Positions 16,471 through 36,052 of a stretch of DNA of 64,000 nt are shown here, in pieces (the stretch's first letter is position 1; every line of letters starts with the position of its first letter). This stretch comes from Polyangiaceae bacterium (lineage in GTDB: Bacteria > Myxococcota_A > Polyangia > Polyangiales > Polyangiaceae): positions 248,001 through 312,000 of the forward strand of contig JANXOF010000012.1 of NCBI GenBank assembly GCA_025353725.1, in the 5' to 3' direction. The notes below the pieces were generated by a model. It was given only the letters and a program-made list of their open reading frames with translations, made no database searches and was not told the DNA's origin. Made by a program: the position numbers and the translations under genes.

Positions 16471-16485
16471 CCAAGCTTACAAGTG

Positions 16486-18012
16486 ATGAACAAGTCACCC
16501 TCAGGCTTTCCTGTTCCGCCCCTCTCGATGCCTCTTGGTGTCGCTGTCGCGAGGGGCCGCGTGCTCATCGTCGACGACAACGCCGAGCTGGTAGAGGCGC
16601 TCCGCGGAGTGCTCGCCTCAGGTCTGCCCGGTCTTCACATCGAGAGCGCAGCCAACGGCGTCGCCGCTTTGGATATCGCGAAAAAGGGGTTTGACGTCGC
16701 CATCGTCGACGTGAAACTTCCAGACGTAAGCGGCATTGATTTGATACGCCCATTGCACGCGGCCTCACCGCTCGGCGAGGTCTTGTTGCTCACCGGATGT
16801 GCGAGTGTCGACGCGGCTCTCGGAGCGCTTCGGAGCGGCGCGTTTGCGTTCGTTCTCAAATCCTTTAGGCCCGAGGAGCTCATCTCCCTTGTCGAACAGG
16901 CCATAGGTAAAGTGCAGCTCAAACGAGAGCGCGAAGAGCTCGAGCGACGTTACCGCGATCTCGTCGAGGTGACCGACGTGCTTGTCTTCGCGCTCGATGG
17001 CGAAGATCGGGTAGCCCTCATGAATCGAAAGGCGGCGAGCATGGTCCATACGGTGCCCGAACACGCCCTCGGTAGGCCTTTTCTCGAGGCTTGGTTGCCG
17101 CCGGAAGACCGCAGCGGATTGCGCGCGGCGATCGCCGGAACCCGTGCAGGTCTCGGTCACCACCGTCCGCATGACGTCGAGACAGGGTTCGTCGACCAGA
17201 GCGTGCCTTCCACCTCGCGGCGCCGCGTCCGCTGGCACTTATCGTGTTCGCCCGAACCGGCAGGGCTCGTGTATGGAATTGGTATCGACATCACGGAGCG
17301 GCGGGCGCTCGAAAAGCGCGCCGCCGACGCCGAGGCGCTCTCGGCCATGGGCGAACTCGCGATGAACCTCGCGCACGAAATTCGAAACCCGCTCAATGCT
17401 GCCGTCTTGCAGCTTCATCTGTTGAACCGAAACCTCGATCGCCTCGAGGCTGAGGCGTCAACGCGTGCGGCGTTGAAGGATCGCGTGCGTATCGTCGGAG
17501 ACGAGGTCGGGCGCTTAAACCGTTTGCTGACGGAGTTTTTGGAACTCGCACGCCCGCGCGGCATCGCTCGTGAGCCGGTGCACATCCCGCGCTTGATTGA
17601 CGAAGTGCTCGATCTCGAGGCAGAAAGCGCGACGGGGAGGGGAATTGCTATTCTCCGTCACATTCCCGACGATGGCTGCGTCGCCATTGGCGATCGCGAA
17701 AAGCTAAAGCAAGTGGCTATCAACATTGTAGTCAATGCCCTCGAGGCCATGAAGCACGGCGGCGTGCTGACCGTGACGGTGAGACACGCGGGTGAGAGCG
17801 TCGTTCTGGTCGTCGACGACACCGGGCCCGGTATCGACGCGGCGGTGCTCACGAGTGTGTTTGACCCATTTTTCACGACGAAAGAAGCCGGTACGGGACT
17901 CGGTCTCTCAATCGTGAGAAAAATCGTCGACCAGCACGGGGGCGACGTCATCATCGACAGCGTTCAAGGTCGCGGGGCGCGCGTCACCGTCTCGATTCCG
18001 ATGGGTCGCTAG
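16486..18012 (+). CDS. Receiver-PAS-histidine kinase
   Basis: A 508-residue cytoplasmic signalling protein. Counting from ATG 16486: receiver domain about 25-140 with D30/D31, phospho-acceptor D75, T103 and K125 all present; a short coiled coil; a PAS domain about 155-270; a HisKA helix with H297 in LAHEIRNPL; and an HATPase domain with the DDTGPG, FDPFFTTKEAGTGLGL boxes. The N-terminal receiver suggests that an upstream kinase controls this one. No response regulator gene lies next to it, so the downstream partner is unknown. GTG 16483 immediately precedes the ATG and is an alternative start. Confidence 0.95.
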   Translation: MNKSPSGFPVPPLSMPLGVAVARGRVLIVDDNAELVEALRGVLASGLPGLHIESAANGVAALDIAKKGFDVAIVDVKLPDVSGIDLIRPLHAASPLGEVLLLTGCASVDAALGALRSGAFAFVLKSFRPEELISLVEQAIGKVQLKREREELERRYRDLVEVTDVLVFALDGEDRVALMNRKAASMVHTVPEHALGRPFLEAWLPPEDRSGLRAAIAGTRAGLGHHRPHDVETGFVDQSVPSTSRRRVRWHLSCSPEPAGLVYGIGIDITERRALEKRAADAEALSAMGELAMNLAHEIRNPLNAAVLQLHLLNRNLDRLEAEASTRAALKDRVRIVGDEVGRLNRLLTEFLELARPRGIAREPVHIPRLIDEVLDLEAESATGRGIAILRHIPDDGCVAIGDREKLKQVAINIVVNALEAMKHGGVLTVTVRHAGESVVLVVDDTGPGIDAAVLTSVFDPFFTTKEAGTGLGLSIVRKIVDQHGGDVIIDSVQGRGARVTVSIPMGR

Positions 18013-18383
18013 CCTCGTGTTCCCGTGGCGGCGCCTCCTCCGCAGAATGCCGCGAGAGTCGACCCGACGTGCCAGAGTAACATAAACTCGGTCGAAACAC
18101 GTTCTTCGATAAACTATAGGTGACTCCCCGCCGTCGCCGCGGATGGCCGAGCCGCTCCCGGTAGGACCGTTGGTGCATGAGTGGCGAGCCAGGTCAAAAC
18201 GCGTGCGTGAGGACTTCTTCGAGCGCGTGTACTATACACTTTACGGTCCTCGGCTGGCGATGTCCGAAGGTCGGCTCCACCCGACGGCCAACGCGCACGA
18301 TCGACCGGCTTGGACTTTATTTCAAAGCCACTACTTCAAAGCCACGGGCCGCGTTGTGTCCCTCGCTGAAGAGATAGGCGCTG
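18013..18383. other. Long intergenic region without a convincing gene
   Basis: No frame here has the composition or a motif that supports a gene. The only structure seen is TTCAAAGCCAC repeated at 18321-18331 and 18335-18345. The longest frame (18143-18562, plus strand) runs through the direct repeat and has no recognisable domain. Confidence 0.5.
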
Positions 18384-18384
18384 G

Positions 18385-18486
18385 AGTACAGCCCGTCCGT
18401 AACATTTCTCGTAAATCGGTAGTGGCTTGTAACGAGCGTGCATCACTAGCTTGTACCGATTCCAACTCCGAGACGGGGATCCGCCA
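18385..18486. repeat. Direct repeat, copy 1 of about 103 bases
   Basis: Matches 21395-21499 in the same orientation. The first 22 bases (from AGTACAGCCCGTCC to ACATT) are identical and roughly four in five of the rest match by eye. This copy also contains the inverted pair AATCGGTA (18414-18421) and TACCGATT (18454-18461), which copy 2 lacks. It lies beyond the 3' end of the repeat lipoprotein gene. Confidence 0.85.
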
Positions 18487-18583
18487 GCGCCAAGGCATGC
18501 CGCGCGGAGTGTCGCGACGAACGTCTCGGCGTGTCTTCTCGCGGCATGACTATCCTCAGTAGGCGCTTGCGGCCGCTTAAAAG

Positions 18584-18622
18584 CACGCGGCCGCGGAGGT
18601 TTTTACCTCACGCGGCCGCGTG
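18584..18622 (-). terminator. Long GC-rich hairpin, probable terminator
   Basis: CACGCGGCCGCGGAGGT (18584-18600) pairs with ACCTC, one bulged A, and CGCGGCCGCGTG (18605-18622) around a TTTT loop. It lies 38 bases past the stop of the leftward repeat lipoprotein gene. There is no long T run, so the call rests on stem length and position. Confidence 0.6.
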
Positions 18623-18660
18623 TCTCAGATGGCTAAACGTACCGCTCGACTAGGCGAGTG

Positions 18661-21363
18661 TTACTTGCACGCGACGTTGTACGTCGTGCAACCACCGCGC
18701 CCGCCGCCTGCTACGGTTGCACCATTGCAGCCCCAGGTCGTGCCTGACGCGTTGGTTAGGCCGGCGTTGTATCCAGAATTGGTCGGGTCGACATAACCGA
18801 ATTGCGTGCCCACCGTAGTTGGAAACGCCAGCGTGTTGCCATGCCATTGACCGATGCCGCAGCAACCGCTCCACGAAGCGTTTGAAGCAGCGACAAGGCA
18901 CTGTCCCGCTGCAGCGAACGCCGGAGTAGAGTTCGTGAAGTACGAGACTGACCAATTACACGACGAGGTTGCGCCGAGTGAGACGACGCCAGATGTGCCG
19001 TCGGACGCGTGGCTGACGAGCTTTTTGCCGATGGCGGTGCACGAGGCCTCCGCCTTGGCTTGGTTGCAGTTGCCGATGGTTCCGTCACCACAGGGCACGT
19101 ACTTTACCGCGCTTAGCAAGCCTGCCACGTCGCGAACCGTGCCGTCGCCGACAACGCATGCGATCGACACGTTTGAGACCGCAGCCGAGCCAATGGTGCC
19201 GGTTCCGTTGGTGATGGAGCAGAATTTGCCGACAGGCGCACTGCTGACGGTCACCGCGTAAGTCGCGCCGCTGGCGATGTTGGTCGTGAAGGTGAAGGTA
19301 CCATCAACCGCTTGGGTGAGGTTGTTTCCGCCGTTGTTCTGGAGCGTGATGCTTCCGCCCGTGACGCCAGTGACGGTTCCGCCAACGGAGTAGGTGTTCG
19401 TGGTGCACGCGACGCCGACGCTGGATACGTTGCTTGAGCTGACGGTGCCCGACGGTGTGGTGAGCACACAGGTCTGGCTCGGGTTGGTGGGTTGAGTCTT
19501 GATGGCGACCGAGTAAGCGGCGCCGCTGGCAATCGGAGTTCCAAAAGCGTAAGCGCCGTTGCCATTGAGGGTGACGTCTTCGGTATTGTTGTTGCGAAGA
19601 ACAAGACCGGTGCCTGCAAGGCCGCTGGCGCTTCCGCCAATGGTGTACTTGTTGGTCGAGCAATTCAGGGCGACGGTCACGATGTTACCATTCGTGACGG
19701 TGCCGGAGGGCGCGCTGAGCGTGCACGTCTGGCTCGGGTTGCTGGGCTGGCTCTTGACCGAGACGCTGTAGGGCTGCCCGCTAGCGATGGTTGTAGTGAA
19801 GGTAAACGTTCCGTTGGCGGCGATGGCCAGGTCGTTTCCGAGGTTGTTTTGAACGACAAGGCCCGCACCCGAAAGGCCCGCGGCGGTGCCGCTCACGGTG
19901 TACTTGTTTGTCACGCAGGTGATGGCGACGTTGGCGACGTCGGCTCCGCCGACGGTCCCGTTCGGGTTGGCGACGGTGCAGCTCTGACTGACATTGCTGG
20001 GCTGCGTTTTGACGGTGACGGCGTAGGTTTGGCCGCTGAGAATGGAGGTCGAAAACTTGAACGTTCCGTCGGCGTTGACGGGGAGGTCGTCGCCGGCCTT
20101 GTTTTGGAGAATGAGCCCAGCGCCGGCGAGGCCGGTGACGGTACCGCCTATTTTATAGGGGTTCGTGACGCAGGTGAGGGCGACGTTGCTCACGTTCGCC
20201 GCGGTGATAGTGCCGGACGATGCGCTGAGCGAGCAGGTCTGGCTCGGGTTGGTGGGCTGCGTCTTGATAGAGACGGAGTACGCGGCGCCGCTGCTGATGG
20301 CGGTGGAGAAAGCGAAGGTACCGTTGGCGTTGACGCTAAGGTCGTTGCCAAGGTTATTTTGAAGCACCAGGCCCGTGCCCGCGACGCCGGATGCGGTCCC
20401 GCTGACGAGGTACTTGTTGGTGGTGCAGTTGACGGCGACGCTGGTGATATTTCCCCCGCCGACCGTGCCCGAGCCGACCACGGTGCAGGTCTGCGACGGG
20501 TTGCTGGGTTGCGTATCCACGGTGACCGCGTAGGCGGCACCACTGGCAATCTTCGTGGGGAACTTAAAGGTCCCATTGGCGGCGACCGGGAGTGTTTCGT
20601 CGTTGTTAATCTTGAGCTTTAGGCCTGCCCCCACGAGTCCGGCGACGGTGCCGCCGACGTCGTACGTATTGGTGACACACGCAATGGCTACGTCCGTAAT
20701 GGGCGCGCCGGCGATGGTGCCTGAGCCGCCGCCGGTGACAGTGCACGTTTGGCTGGGAGTGCCCGGTTGCGCTTTGACGGTGACGGCGTACGCCGTGCCC
20801 GAAGTGACGCCTTCGGCGAAGGCGAAGTTACCGCTGTTGTTGACGATAAGGTCGTTGCCCAGGTTGTTTTGAAGAGTGAGACCCGCGCCAAGGAGTCCGG
20901 TGACGGTGCCTCCGACGGGGAGTTTGTTCGAGTCGCACGTAACGGCGATGCTCGTGACGTTACCGGCTGCGACGATGCCGGTACCGGCCGCCACGGAGCA
21001 GGTCTGATAAGGGGCCGTGGGCTGCGTCTTGACGGTCACGTCGTACGCGGTTCCGGGCGCTACCTTGGTGGGGAACGTGAACGAACCGTCCGCGGCCACG
21101 GGAATGTCATCTCCGCCGCTGTTTTGAAGGACGAGGCCTGTTCCGCTCAACCCGCTCACCGAACCGCCGACGCTAAAGGTCGGAATCACCACCGCCGCGT
21201 CGACGGACGCGTCGGCTCCAAAGGGCTTCGGATCTACGGGGACGCTGCCAGACGTTCCGCCGCTGCTGCTTGTTGTTCCCCCTCCGCCTGTATCGCTACT
21301 TCCGCACGCGACAGCCACCGCGGCCGCCGCGAGCAATGCCGAACCGAGTCTCAAACATTTCAT
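18661..21363 (-). CDS. 900-residue lipoprotein with eight tandem Ig-like repeats
   Basis: A lipoprotein signal (AVAVACGSS, C20) and a Gly/Ser/Thr linker lead into eight repeats of about 85 residues (residues about 63-743). Each begins (V)GGTVxGLxGxGL, passes through LQNNxGxDL, GTFxFxTxIxSGxxYxVxVxTQP, and has two cysteines (QTCTV and VAxxC) that could form a disulphide. The repeats look like all-beta Ig-like or carboxypeptidase-regulatory-like modules. Residues about 745-900 are a different, Cys- and Trp-rich domain (CNWSVSYF, WSGCCGIGQW, GCNGATVAGGG). It is probably a stalked surface adhesin or receptor; no named family is certain. The gene stands alone, with a hairpin after it and direct repeats on both sides. 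Confidence 0.85.
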   Translation of the reverse strand: MKCLRLGSALLAAAAVAVACGSSDTGGGGTTSSSGGTSGSVPVDPKPFGADASVDAAVVIPTFSVGGSVSGLSGTGLVLQNSGGDDIPVAADGSFTFPTKVAPGTAYDVTVKTQPTAPYQTCSVAAGTGIVAAGNVTSIAVTCDSNKLPVGGTVTGLLGAGLTLQNNLGNDLIVNNSGNFAFAEGVTSGTAYAVTVKAQPGTPSQTCTVTGGGSGTIAGAPITDVAIACVTNTYDVGGTVAGLVGAGLKLKINNDETLPVAANGTFKFPTKIASGAAYAVTVDTQPSNPSQTCTVVGSGTVGGGNITSVAVNCTTNKYLVSGTASGVAGTGLVLQNNLGNDLSVNANGTFAFSTAISSGAAYSVSIKTQPTNPSQTCSLSASSGTITAANVSNVALTCVTNPYKIGGTVTGLAGAGLILQNKAGDDLPVNADGTFKFSTSILSGQTYAVTVKTQPSNVSQSCTVANPNGTVGGADVANVAITCVTNKYTVSGTAAGLSGAGLVVQNNLGNDLAIAANGTFTFTTTIASGQPYSVSVKSQPSNPSQTCTLSAPSGTVTNGNIVTVALNCSTNKYTIGGSASGLAGTGLVLRNNNTEDVTLNGNGAYAFGTPIASGAAYSVAIKTQPTNPSQTCVLTTPSGTVSSSNVSSVGVACTTNTYSVGGTVTGVTGGSITLQNNGGNNLTQAVDGTFTFTTNIASGATYAVTVSSAPVGKFCSITNGTGTIGSAAVSNVSIACVVGDGTVRDVAGLLSAVKYVPCGDGTIGNCNQAKAEASCTAIGKKLVSHASDGTSGVVSLGATSSCNWSVSYFTNSTPAFAAAGQCLVAASNASWSGCCGIGQWHGNTLAFPTTVGTQFGYVDPTNSGYNAGLTNASGTTWGCNGATVAGGGRGGCTTYNVACK
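19134..21177 (-). repeat. Eight in-frame tandem repeats of about 255 bases
   Basis: The DNA encoding the eight 85-residue modules is itself repetitive. Recurrent plus-strand words include TGGCTCGGGTTG, GGTTGTTTTG and TACTTGTTNGT at regular spacing. Units differ enough that no two are identical, which suggests old duplication with divergence. Confidence 0.8.
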
Positions 21364-21394
21364 ACGACGGAGGCTACGAGAGCGCCTAAGGCGT

Positions 21395-21499
21395 AGTACA
21401 GCCCGTCCGTAACATTCCCCTCAAATCGGTACTACCTTGTAGCGAGCGCGCATCACTCGCTTACATTCGACTCCAACTCTGAAACGAAAAAACCCGCCA
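21395..21499. repeat. Direct repeat, copy 2, upstream of the repeat lipoprotein
   Basis: Second copy of the sequence at 18385-18486, starting 32 bases upstream of the lipoprotein start codon, so it probably includes that gene's promoter or 5' leader. The fully conserved 22-base core lies nearest the gene. Confidence 0.85.
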
Positions 21500-21578
21500 A
21501 TTCTCCAATGCGCACGCGCGTTCGCGGCGACCAGAAATTCGGCGGGGTCTTCTCAGACCTCACGTATGTAAGTCGCGT

Positions 21579-22244
21579 TCAGCGGCCGGGTGGCTTGAGC
21601 GGCAATACCGACGACGACATGGGAGGCGGCGGAATCTTTCCGCTCGCGCGCGCATCGGGACTCAAGCCGTCGCCGGCCTCAATCGACATGAGCGCCATGA
21701 AGATGCGATCCATGCCCAGTTCGAGCGCGCCGTCTTTGAGAAACAAGCCCGTGATCCGCACGAGGCGAAGAGCCGTGGTCTTGCCGAGTTCAGCGGTCTC
21801 GCGCTCTAGGAAAGCCTCGAACGTCCCGAACCCTTTCGCCTGATAAAGATGACGAGCCTGGATGTCCCGCAGGACTAGGCCGATGTCATAAAAGCCCTTC
21901 GCGAGGTTCTTACGGAAGCCTTTAATCTGCTGGAGGCAGTTATGAAGCTCGCCAATCTTAGCTTTGATGTCCTCGGCCATCACGGGCGTACGGATCGTCG
22001 CCCGTGCGCTGCCTGGCAAAGGCGGCTCGGCCGCGCGTGCGCGAGCCTCTGCCGCGTGTTTTGCGGCGTGTCGTGCGGCCCACGGAGCCGCGCCTCGTAG
22101 ACCGAGCTTTCGCTTCGGTGCCTCCGCGGCAACCTTCTCCGCCTTCGCGGCCGCCGCTTTGGCGCCGCCCTTACCTGGGACCTTGGGTTCTGCCGACTTC
22201 GCCTTCGCGGGCTTCTTGGTCGCTGCCATTTCCGTAACGCTCAT
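21579..22244 (-). CDS. Lys/Ala-rich tail fused to a helical domain, unknown function
   Basis: A 221-residue cytoplasmic protein. The first 85 residues are Lys/Ala/Pro-rich and basic (KKPAKAKSAEPKVPGKGG), like histone H1-type tails that bind nucleic acid. Residues about 88-165 form a helical domain: IKAKIGELHNCLQQIKGF, then DIGLVLRDIQARHLYQAKGF, TFEAFLERE and TTALRLVRIT. This is reminiscent of DUF3102-like or ParB-adjacent domains with a GxxTFExY pattern, but I cannot name the family firmly. The C-terminus is Pro/Ser-rich. MAATKK at 22229 is an alternative start. DNA binding is an inference. Confidence 0.7.
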   Translation of the reverse strand: MSVTEMAATKKPAKAKSAEPKVPGKGGAKAAAAKAEKVAAEAPKRKLGLRGAAPWAARHAAKHAAEARARAAEPPLPGSARATIRTPVMAEDIKAKIGELHNCLQQIKGFRKNLAKGFYDIGLVLRDIQARHLYQAKGFGTFEAFLERETAELGKTTALRLVRITGLFLKDGALELGMDRIFMALMSIEAGDGLSPDARASGKIPPPPMSSSVLPLKPPGR

Positions 22245-34858: not shown

Positions 34859-35125
34859 TAAGCAGAATCTCCTTAGGAGGCATCACCCTACAAGAAGGCG
34901 AGGCTGTATGGGTAGAATCACGCCTCCTACGCGCGGCGAAAGATGACCGCGCTCCGCTGCCGTGGGGCGCTAGATCCACCCGATCGGGCGAAGGACACCT
35001 CCTCATTCAAGCAGAATTGGTCGATTTGCCTTCAGTAACCCACCGGTGTGGAGTGGTCGCACTTTTGCAAACCTTCCTACGAGACGATAGGAGCCCGTAT
35101 ACCGCGTCGTGATAAAAGACGCGCC

Positions 35126-36052
35126 ATGCCTTCCATCACGCACGAGGCATTGGTTTTGCTCTTTCGGAACCGACCCGAACTCGCACCGGAACTCCTTCGC
35201 GACGTGCTTGGCGTCTCGCTGCCCGTCTACGCGGAGGCGCGCGTCGAGGCCGCCGATTTGTCGGAGGTCAATCCTGCCGAATATCGAGCCGACCTCGTGG
35301 TGCTACTCGTCGAGGGCAAGCCTGTACTTGCCATTGTCGTCGAAGTGCAGCTTCAGAAGGACGCGCGGAAGGCGTTCACCTGGCCGGTTTACGTGACGGG
35401 GTTACGCGCTCGCTTTGAATGCGCGGCCTGTCTTCTCGTCGTCACGCCCAGTGAAGGCGTTGCCGACTGGGCTCGCGCCTCGCTCGAGATAGGGCCGGGC
35501 TCGCGGGTTGTCCCTTTTGTTGTCGGTCCAAAAGCGATTCCACTCGTGCTCGATGTTCAAGCCGCGAAGCGCGATCCGGAGCTTGCGGTGCTCTCCATCA
35601 TGGCTCACGGAAAGGACGAATTCGGACCGCAGATTGCCCTGGCTGCACTTTCCGCGGCCGTCGGTCTCGACGAGGAGCGAGCCCTGCTATACTCGGACGT
35701 GATCATGGCCTCGTTGAGTGAGGCCACTCGCATCGCGATGGAGGAACTCATGGCATCTGGCAATTACGAGTATCAGAGCGATTTTGCCAAAAGTCATCAG
35801 GCCAAGGGCCGTTCAGAGGGCCGTTCAGAGGGCCGTTCAGAGGGTCGTTTAGAGGGTCGTTCGGAGGGCCGTTCGGAGGGCCGGCTCGAGGGCGAAGCGC
35901 TCTCCATCATCAAGTTTCTAGAAGCGAGAGGTCTGAAGGTCTCCGAAGCTCAGAGGGCTCGCATCGTCACTTGCACCGACGCCGAAACTCTTGACGCGTG
36001 GACCCGCAAGTCGGCGACCACGGCGTCGCTCGAAGCGCTTTTTGAAGCCTGA
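35126..36052 (+). CDS. Rpn-like PD-(D/E)XK nuclease-family protein
   Basis: A 308-residue protein of the Rpn/YhgA-like group, also frequent in Streptomyces. The N-terminal part has the nuclease core: HEALVLLFRNRP, YRADLVVLL (D56) and AIVVEVQLQKD (E73, Q75, K78). Q75 replaces the usual Lys of the ExK pair, as in many Rpn relatives. After a helical middle come seven GRSE/GRLE repeats (residues about 228-255) and a helical tail ending ARIVTCTDAETLDAW. Family members act in recombination or phage defence in E. coli; here the role is unproven. ATG 35126 (MPSITHEAL) is preferred to upstream starts. An internal ATG with a good Shine-Dalgarno is discussed in findings. Confidence 0.85.
   Translation: MPSITHEALVLLFRNRPELAPELLRDVLGVSLPVYAEARVEAADLSEVNPAEYRADLVVLLVEGKPVLAIVVEVQLQKDARKAFTWPVYVTGLRARFECAACLLVVTPSEGVADWARASLEIGPGSRVVPFVVGPKAIPLVLDVQAAKRDPELAVLSIMAHGKDEFGPQIALAALSAAVGLDEERALLYSDVIMASLSEATRIAMEELMASGNYEYQSDFAKSHQAKGRSEGRSEGRSEGRLEGRSEGRSEGRLEGEALSIIKFLEARGLKVSEAQRARIVTCTDAETLDAWTRKSATTASLEALFEA
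35740..35752 (+). promoter_or_regulatory. Internal Shine-Dalgarno and in-frame ATG in the Rpn-like gene
   Basis: GGAGG at 35740-35744 sits five bases before ATG 35750, which is in the gene's own frame (residue 209). Translation from here would give a 100-residue C-terminal protein holding the GRSE repeats and tail without the nuclease core. Confidence 0.35.
35807..35890 (+). repeat. Seven 12-base in-frame repeats (GRSE)
   Basis: Unit GGCCGTTCAGAG. The first three copies are identical and later ones carry one to four changes. The repeat encodes a charged helix-forming linker. Identical adjacent copies suggest recent slippage. Confidence 0.92.

Follow-up and report, generated by a model that had tools for sequence, protein, structure and literature searches.

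The 64,000-nucleotide stretch of Polyangiaceae DNA analysed here (the window) contains two direct repeats of about 90 bases that flank the gene of a 900-residue lipoprotein. The pair is a real repeat and is locally unusual within its genome. We give about an even chance to its being the relic of an old tandem duplication followed by a deletion, in which copy 2 is the native leader of the lipoprotein gene and copy 1 is a dead duplicate of that leader.

The supported core of the alignment pairs positions 18385-18475 (copy 1, 91 bases) with positions 21395-21486 (copy 2, 92 bases) and consists of 75 matches, 16 mismatches and 1 gap (82% identity). Its score of 97 was equalled in none of 1000 paired shuffles, the maximum of which was 30. 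Both copies begin, in the same orientation, with the identical 22 bases AGTACAGCCCGTCCGTAACATT (at 18385 and 21395), which also form the longest exact run between them. In the core after these bases, 53 of 69 aligned bases match (~77%), and the difference between the two parts may reflect chance or a site under selection. A sequence-only reading of the window had reported the coordinates, the orientation and the identical start, all of which were borne out by the alignment. The repeat itself was thus real, but the length of ~103 bases given for it was not retained, as the copies had been drawn 11 and 13 bases too far to the right. The wider span (18385-18486 and 21395-21499) aligned with 82 matches, 20 mismatches and 3 gaps; its rightward extension beyond the core scored 20, which was equalled in 64 of 1000 shuffles, and a leftward extension scored 16, equalled in 179 of 1000, both at the level of chance. 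The ungapped 10-base bins outside the core hold 0-5 matches each, indicating that both edges are sharp. A coding origin of the repeat was rejected: the 10 differences in the 68-base ungapped part of the core split 5/3/2 over the codon positions and give no coding signal.

The same reading had placed the lipoprotein gene between the copies, with copy 2 just upstream of its start and copy 1 past its terminator, and this layout was confirmed. The gene (18661-21363, minus strand) matches PF14289 with an E-value of 1.7e-13, has a lipobox read by eye and carries eight-fold internal repeats of ~255 bases (85 aa) each. Copy 2 lies 5' of the gene, 31 bases from the ATG. Copy 1 lies 3' of it, ~100 bases beyond a strong, near-palindromic, GC-rich hairpin (~18573-18629; CACGCGGCCGCG... 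/ ...CGCGGCCGCGTG) that stands between the stop codon and copy 1 and is likely the terminator of the lipoprotein gene. The folding of 18560-18660 gave z-scores of -4.3 on the plus strand and -4.7 on the minus strand; the hairpin was absent from the hits of a simple terminator scan. The Rfam search over 17900-22000 yielded one sub-threshold match, on this hairpin (21.6 bits against a gathering score of 50), which was taken as chance. On its other side, copy 2 borders a putative terminator of the neighbouring gene Z (21487-21546, minus strand), recognized by eye from the arms CCCGCCGAATT (21546-21536) and AATTGGCGGG (21502-21493) followed by TTTTTT (21492-21487). It overlaps the end of copy 2 as drawn in the sequence-only reading, and a terminator scan with a loop limit of 8 did not find it.

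The repeat proved to be rare. A scan of 713,593 bases of the same genome (contig C64 and 400 kb of C13) for pairs of at least 50 bases lying within 10 kb, at E up to 1e-6, found 13 pairs, and the pair flanking the lipoprotein gene was the only one with both arms outside the ORFs, as called by a simple custom rule. Even when up to 3 mismatches are allowed, the 22-mer occurs at no other place in the genome than these two, an argument against a mobile-element family; for copy 2, the sole additional match in the genome at E up to 1 was 16 bases long. In a comparison set of one genome per species, a search with copy 2 in 95 relatives and one with copy 1 in the order (182 other genomes) gave matches of 15-29 bases only, and no copy of the repeat. 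The exact 22-mer occurred 0 times in genome_contigs and viral_contigs, and copy 2 gave 0 matches in plasmids and 0 in phages. Neither of two distributions raised in the sequence-only reading was therefore found: the repeat does not occur at many unrelated sites, and it is not strictly conserved in all relatives, since no searched relative carries a copy. A MITE-like small mobile element was also rejected, with just two sites in the genome, 0 exact 22-mers in the two contig collections and no terminal inverted repeats; the sole 8-base inverted pair is internal and present in one copy.

That inverted pair, AATCGGTA (18414-18421) and TACCGATT (18454-18461), is found in copy 1 and is absent in copy 2, as had been claimed. 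However, an 8-base pair also arises in 55 of 2000 shuffles of copy 1, and so it is weak evidence. It bears on a reading that we regard as improbable, namely that the two copies both function in regulation, for instance as binding sites of one regulator or, in the case of copy 1, as the driver of a small RNA. The copies are AT-richer than their surroundings (53% and 51% G+C, against 58-64%), selection could be acting on the exact 22 bases as a site, and the minus-strand RNA of copy 1 folds somewhat better than its shuffles (z -2.2), all of which would suit such a role. Meanwhile, the remaining RNA folds reach z -0.6 to -1.5 and the DNA folds z +0.07 to -0.55, the inverted pair was not kept in copy 2, a scan found no sigma-70 consensus in either copy, and Rfam gave no match at the repeats. 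The lack of a further genomic site for the 22-mer and of the repeat in the searched relatives also argues against regulation. A common RNA structure of the two copies was predicted with 25 pairs, 0 of which have changes on both sides, and it is uninformative with two sequences.

Immediately beside copy 1 lies the decayed 5' part of a Uma2-family gene (18143-18384, plus strand), comprising the first ~80 of some 300-335 codons in the frames +1, +2 and +1. The family (PF05685) is labelled 'putative restriction endonuclease'. Of the 182 order genomes searched besides this one, 10 contain matches to the peptide from 18113-18384 (plus strand; E 2.4e-11 to 3.5e-6, cut-off 1e-5), and none of these 10 belongs to the same genus. 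The peptide resembles the N-terminal part of the homologues in the order with 37-50% identity; three of these score as Uma2 in Pfam (56.6-71.4 bits, cut-off 27), and the 90-aa remnant by itself gives no Pfam hit. An HMM built from 11 homologues (339 positions) aligned its positions 40-85 and 96-111 in frame +1 and, between these two pieces, positions 86-101 in frame +2. The frame +2 piece scores weakly when taken singly (3.8 bits), and a 14-base tandem duplication at 18321/18335 lies beside the frame changes.

With the open frame 18113-18559 as the target, the Uma2 alignment stops at 18379, five bases before copy 1. This end point rests on searches that were free to extend, as queries ending at 18384 are uninformative there. 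None of the 228 further model positions was found in 18370-18700 or 21360-21600. As the alignment ends so close to copy 1 and no later part lies nearby, copy 1 stands at the broken end of the Uma2 gene. With model positions 40-111 of 339 only, the remnant has no complete catalytic domain; it is truncated and frameshifted and no longer a working gene, and its frameshifts suggest that the locus is decaying. Uma2 genes are common in the genus, with 23 matches in the same genome (G000) and 0-64 in the other 11 genus genomes, the extremes being G004 (0; 72% complete) and G005 (64). A whole-window profile scan also detected a Uma2-like tail at 35039-36049 (plus strand; 30 bits). The frame there is 337 aa long, resembles the tail of a Uma2 subfamily in its C-terminal 65 residues and has no Uma2 domain in Pfam. 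Since this tail sits in another frame of 337 aa, it was not counted as the missing Uma2 part; it appears to be a tail common to the Uma2 subfamily that is carried by another protein.

Both repeats lie within a 3,566-base stretch (18013-21578) between the stop codons of a response-regulator/histidine-kinase gene on the left (HK; 16483-18012, plus strand) and the conserved 221-aa gene Z on the right (21579-22244, minus strand). Z is present in 12 of the 12 genus genomes and a close HK in 10 of 12, the genome studied here being counted in both. Relatives of Z were found at 65 loci of GTDB contigs, several of which are the same records as the genus genomes, so that the two sets of counts are not independent. 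At 29 loci, HK stands in convergent order on the examined stretch; the other 36, without a visible HK (different order, short contig or too diverged), are uninformative on the gap. The gaps, estimated from the matched ends, measure 0-261 bases in 21 of the 29 convergent loci, 497 bases in one and 985-4814 bases in seven. In four same-genus genomes whose gaps are short, alignment on the right is confined to Z or reaches a few bases beyond its stop codon; on the left it ends at most 5 bases from the HK stop in three of them and, in the fourth (L070), continues with gaps for 49 bases beyond that stop. Because most of the convergent loci have a gap of at most 261 bases, the 3.57-kb stretch is probably an insertion with both repeats inside; its loss in many lines would be a less simple alternative. 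At the 65 loci, tblastn (E up to 1e-5) detected neither the lipoprotein nor the one Uma2 homologue used as a query, and blastn (E up to 0.05) detected no match to the repeat.

The content of the HK-Z interval differs among Polyangiaceae (L071-L074, L108, L111, L112, L121, L131, L146 and L148), with examples such as a 386-aa lipoprotein-like frame in L071 and a 252/276-aa protein in L072 and L074. It is possible that the interval is a spot of gene turnover. Direct pairs (E up to 1e-3) were seen in 4 of 9 other HK-Z intervals of at least 497 bases (L111, L148, L160 and L073), where the copies lie close together and none bracket the content of the interval.

We propose the following course, in an order of events that we infer. 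Copy 2 would be the native upstream region (leader, with a presumed promoter role) of a lipoprotein gene sitting in the HK-Z turnover spot. The unit of leader, gene and terminator would have been duplicated in tandem, giving a postulated second lipoprotein gene that is not seen today. A single deletion would then have run from the second leader through the second lipoprotein gene into a facing Uma2 gene. It would have taken the 3' three quarters of Uma2 and left the second leader (copy 1) joined to Uma2 codon ~80, after which the copies would have drifted to 82% identity.

This course is consistent with a real repeat with sharp edges, with the Uma2 homology ending at 18379, and with the position of copy 2 directly 5' of the gene, beside the putative Z terminator. 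Copy 1 lies past the hairpin of the lipoprotein gene and is oriented like copy 2, which is what a tandem duplication predicts. It abuts the truncated, frameshifted 5' part of Uma2, so that the loss looks like a deletion from copy 1 into Uma2. Against the proposed course stand the lack of a second-lipoprotein remnant beside copy 1 and of tandem pairs in the genus, the identical first 22 bases, which plain drift explains poorly next to ~77% in the remainder, and the fact that nearly the same traces would be expected from a single copying event. The region 18013-18660 gave no remnant of a second lipoprotein gene when compared with the gene and 14 homologue loci: the best six-frame match reached 33.5 bits, less than the median for 100 shuffled spacers (34.3 bits; highest value 43.1).

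Such a single copying event could have made copy 1 in one step, if a break in Uma2 had been mended with a 91-base patch copied from the leader ~3 kb away, the 3' part of Uma2 being lost in the process; a second lipoprotein gene would then never have existed. We consider this possible but doubtful. A patch of this kind would account at once for both sharp edges, for the truncation of Uma2 at copy 1 and for the missing remnant of a second gene, but the same orientation and the place just behind the hairpin would then be coincidence.

The lipoprotein has matches in 9 of the 12 genus genomes, including its own. Among the 25 matches in these 12 genomes, no tandem gene pair, which the sequence-only reading had suggested looking for, was found; matches lying on one contig share a single open-frame length, though one of them (G011, C2) crosses two stops. 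The best match outside the genome itself, 54% identical, is in G004, on another contig than the HK-Z pair of that genome and among other ORFs, and neither repeat copy matches near it. The match to this homologue (L053/L075) covers residues 5-739 of 900, where the repeat part is common and the C-terminal part is apparently different. Direct repeats of at least 40 bases at seven lipoprotein-homologue loci include pairs outside the matched part in L055 (82-154/502-574) and L057 (2860-2920/3037-3097), both with the two copies on the same side of the homologue. The other repeat families considered, five of a larger number at L053 and at L057, lie mainly inside the matched part.

The sequence-only reading had offered two origins of the pair. 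Its promoter region duplicated together with a since-lost gene fits the anatomy best and has been extended here by the Uma2 truncation, while the second gene, of which 18013-18660 holds no residue, stays conjectural. The other origin, a 3-kb recombining cassette, was not upheld. According to PMC12074656, the wzy locus of Salmonella Typhimurium, one gene with two same-direction repeats of 113 bases in the flanking spaces, is reversibly excised between these repeats, and a gene-less form exists in relatives. The layout of one gene between ~90-base direct repeats and the fact that most related loci lack the stretch would agree with a wzy-like, present or former excision or insertion of a single-gene cassette by recombination between the repeats, which we nevertheless judge unlikely. 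The wzy repeats are identical, whereas those described here share 82% identity and no exact run longer than 22 bases, just below the minimal recombining segment of 23-27 bases (RecA/RecBC; 44-90 bases for RecA/RecF) cited in the same paper, where lower identity is also said to lower the efficiency of recombination. The gene-less wzy form retains one copy of the repeat, whereas the searched gene-less relatives retain none here: no locus with one copy and no gene was found among the 65 Z loci, the 95 relatives searched with copy 2 and the 182 genomes searched with copy 1 (one genome per species). Excision was demonstrated for wzy. Finally, no recombinase was recognised in the ORF list of the stretch (Pfam was run on the lipoprotein and a 139-aa ORF only), and the cassette would leave the truncation of Uma2 at copy 1 to be explained separately.

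It is very unlikely that the 3-kb unit is a (recent) lipoprotein cassette moved or excised through a system that uses the 22-base identity within divergent repeats, in a gene-swap spot of polyangia. The search for an integron integrase (TIGR02249) in the genome gave five matches, all on other contigs and none over the 265-bit cut-off (best 75.5); the 14 control genomes likewise gave none, so that the search lacks a positive control. The R boxes of integron attC sites read RYYYAAC / GTTRRRY, and no fitting pair was seen by eye at the repeat ends. If the cassette were true, it would be a further case of single-gene excision between long direct repeats, in a distant phylum.

It should be noted that the genome is a draft assembly of 98 contigs, in which an assembly error might have joined the copies or the remnant. 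We hold this to be extremely improbable. Assemblers should be able to keep apart two copies that differ by 18%, the stretch is far from the ends of its 313,593-base contig, and on either side the flanking HK and Z genes have matches in relatives.

Compared with what is generally known of tandem gene duplication followed by a deletion that leaves a partial duplicate, the preferred duplication and deletion shares the leader duplicate, in the same orientation, behind the gene and beside a truncated gene; it differs in that the second gene is wholly gone and the intermediate is not seen. The case is mostly ordinary genome wear. As a relic, the pair would be a small, readable example of the scars left by gene turnover between two conserved convergent genes, and the HK-Z interval may suit the study of gene gain in Polyangiaceae.
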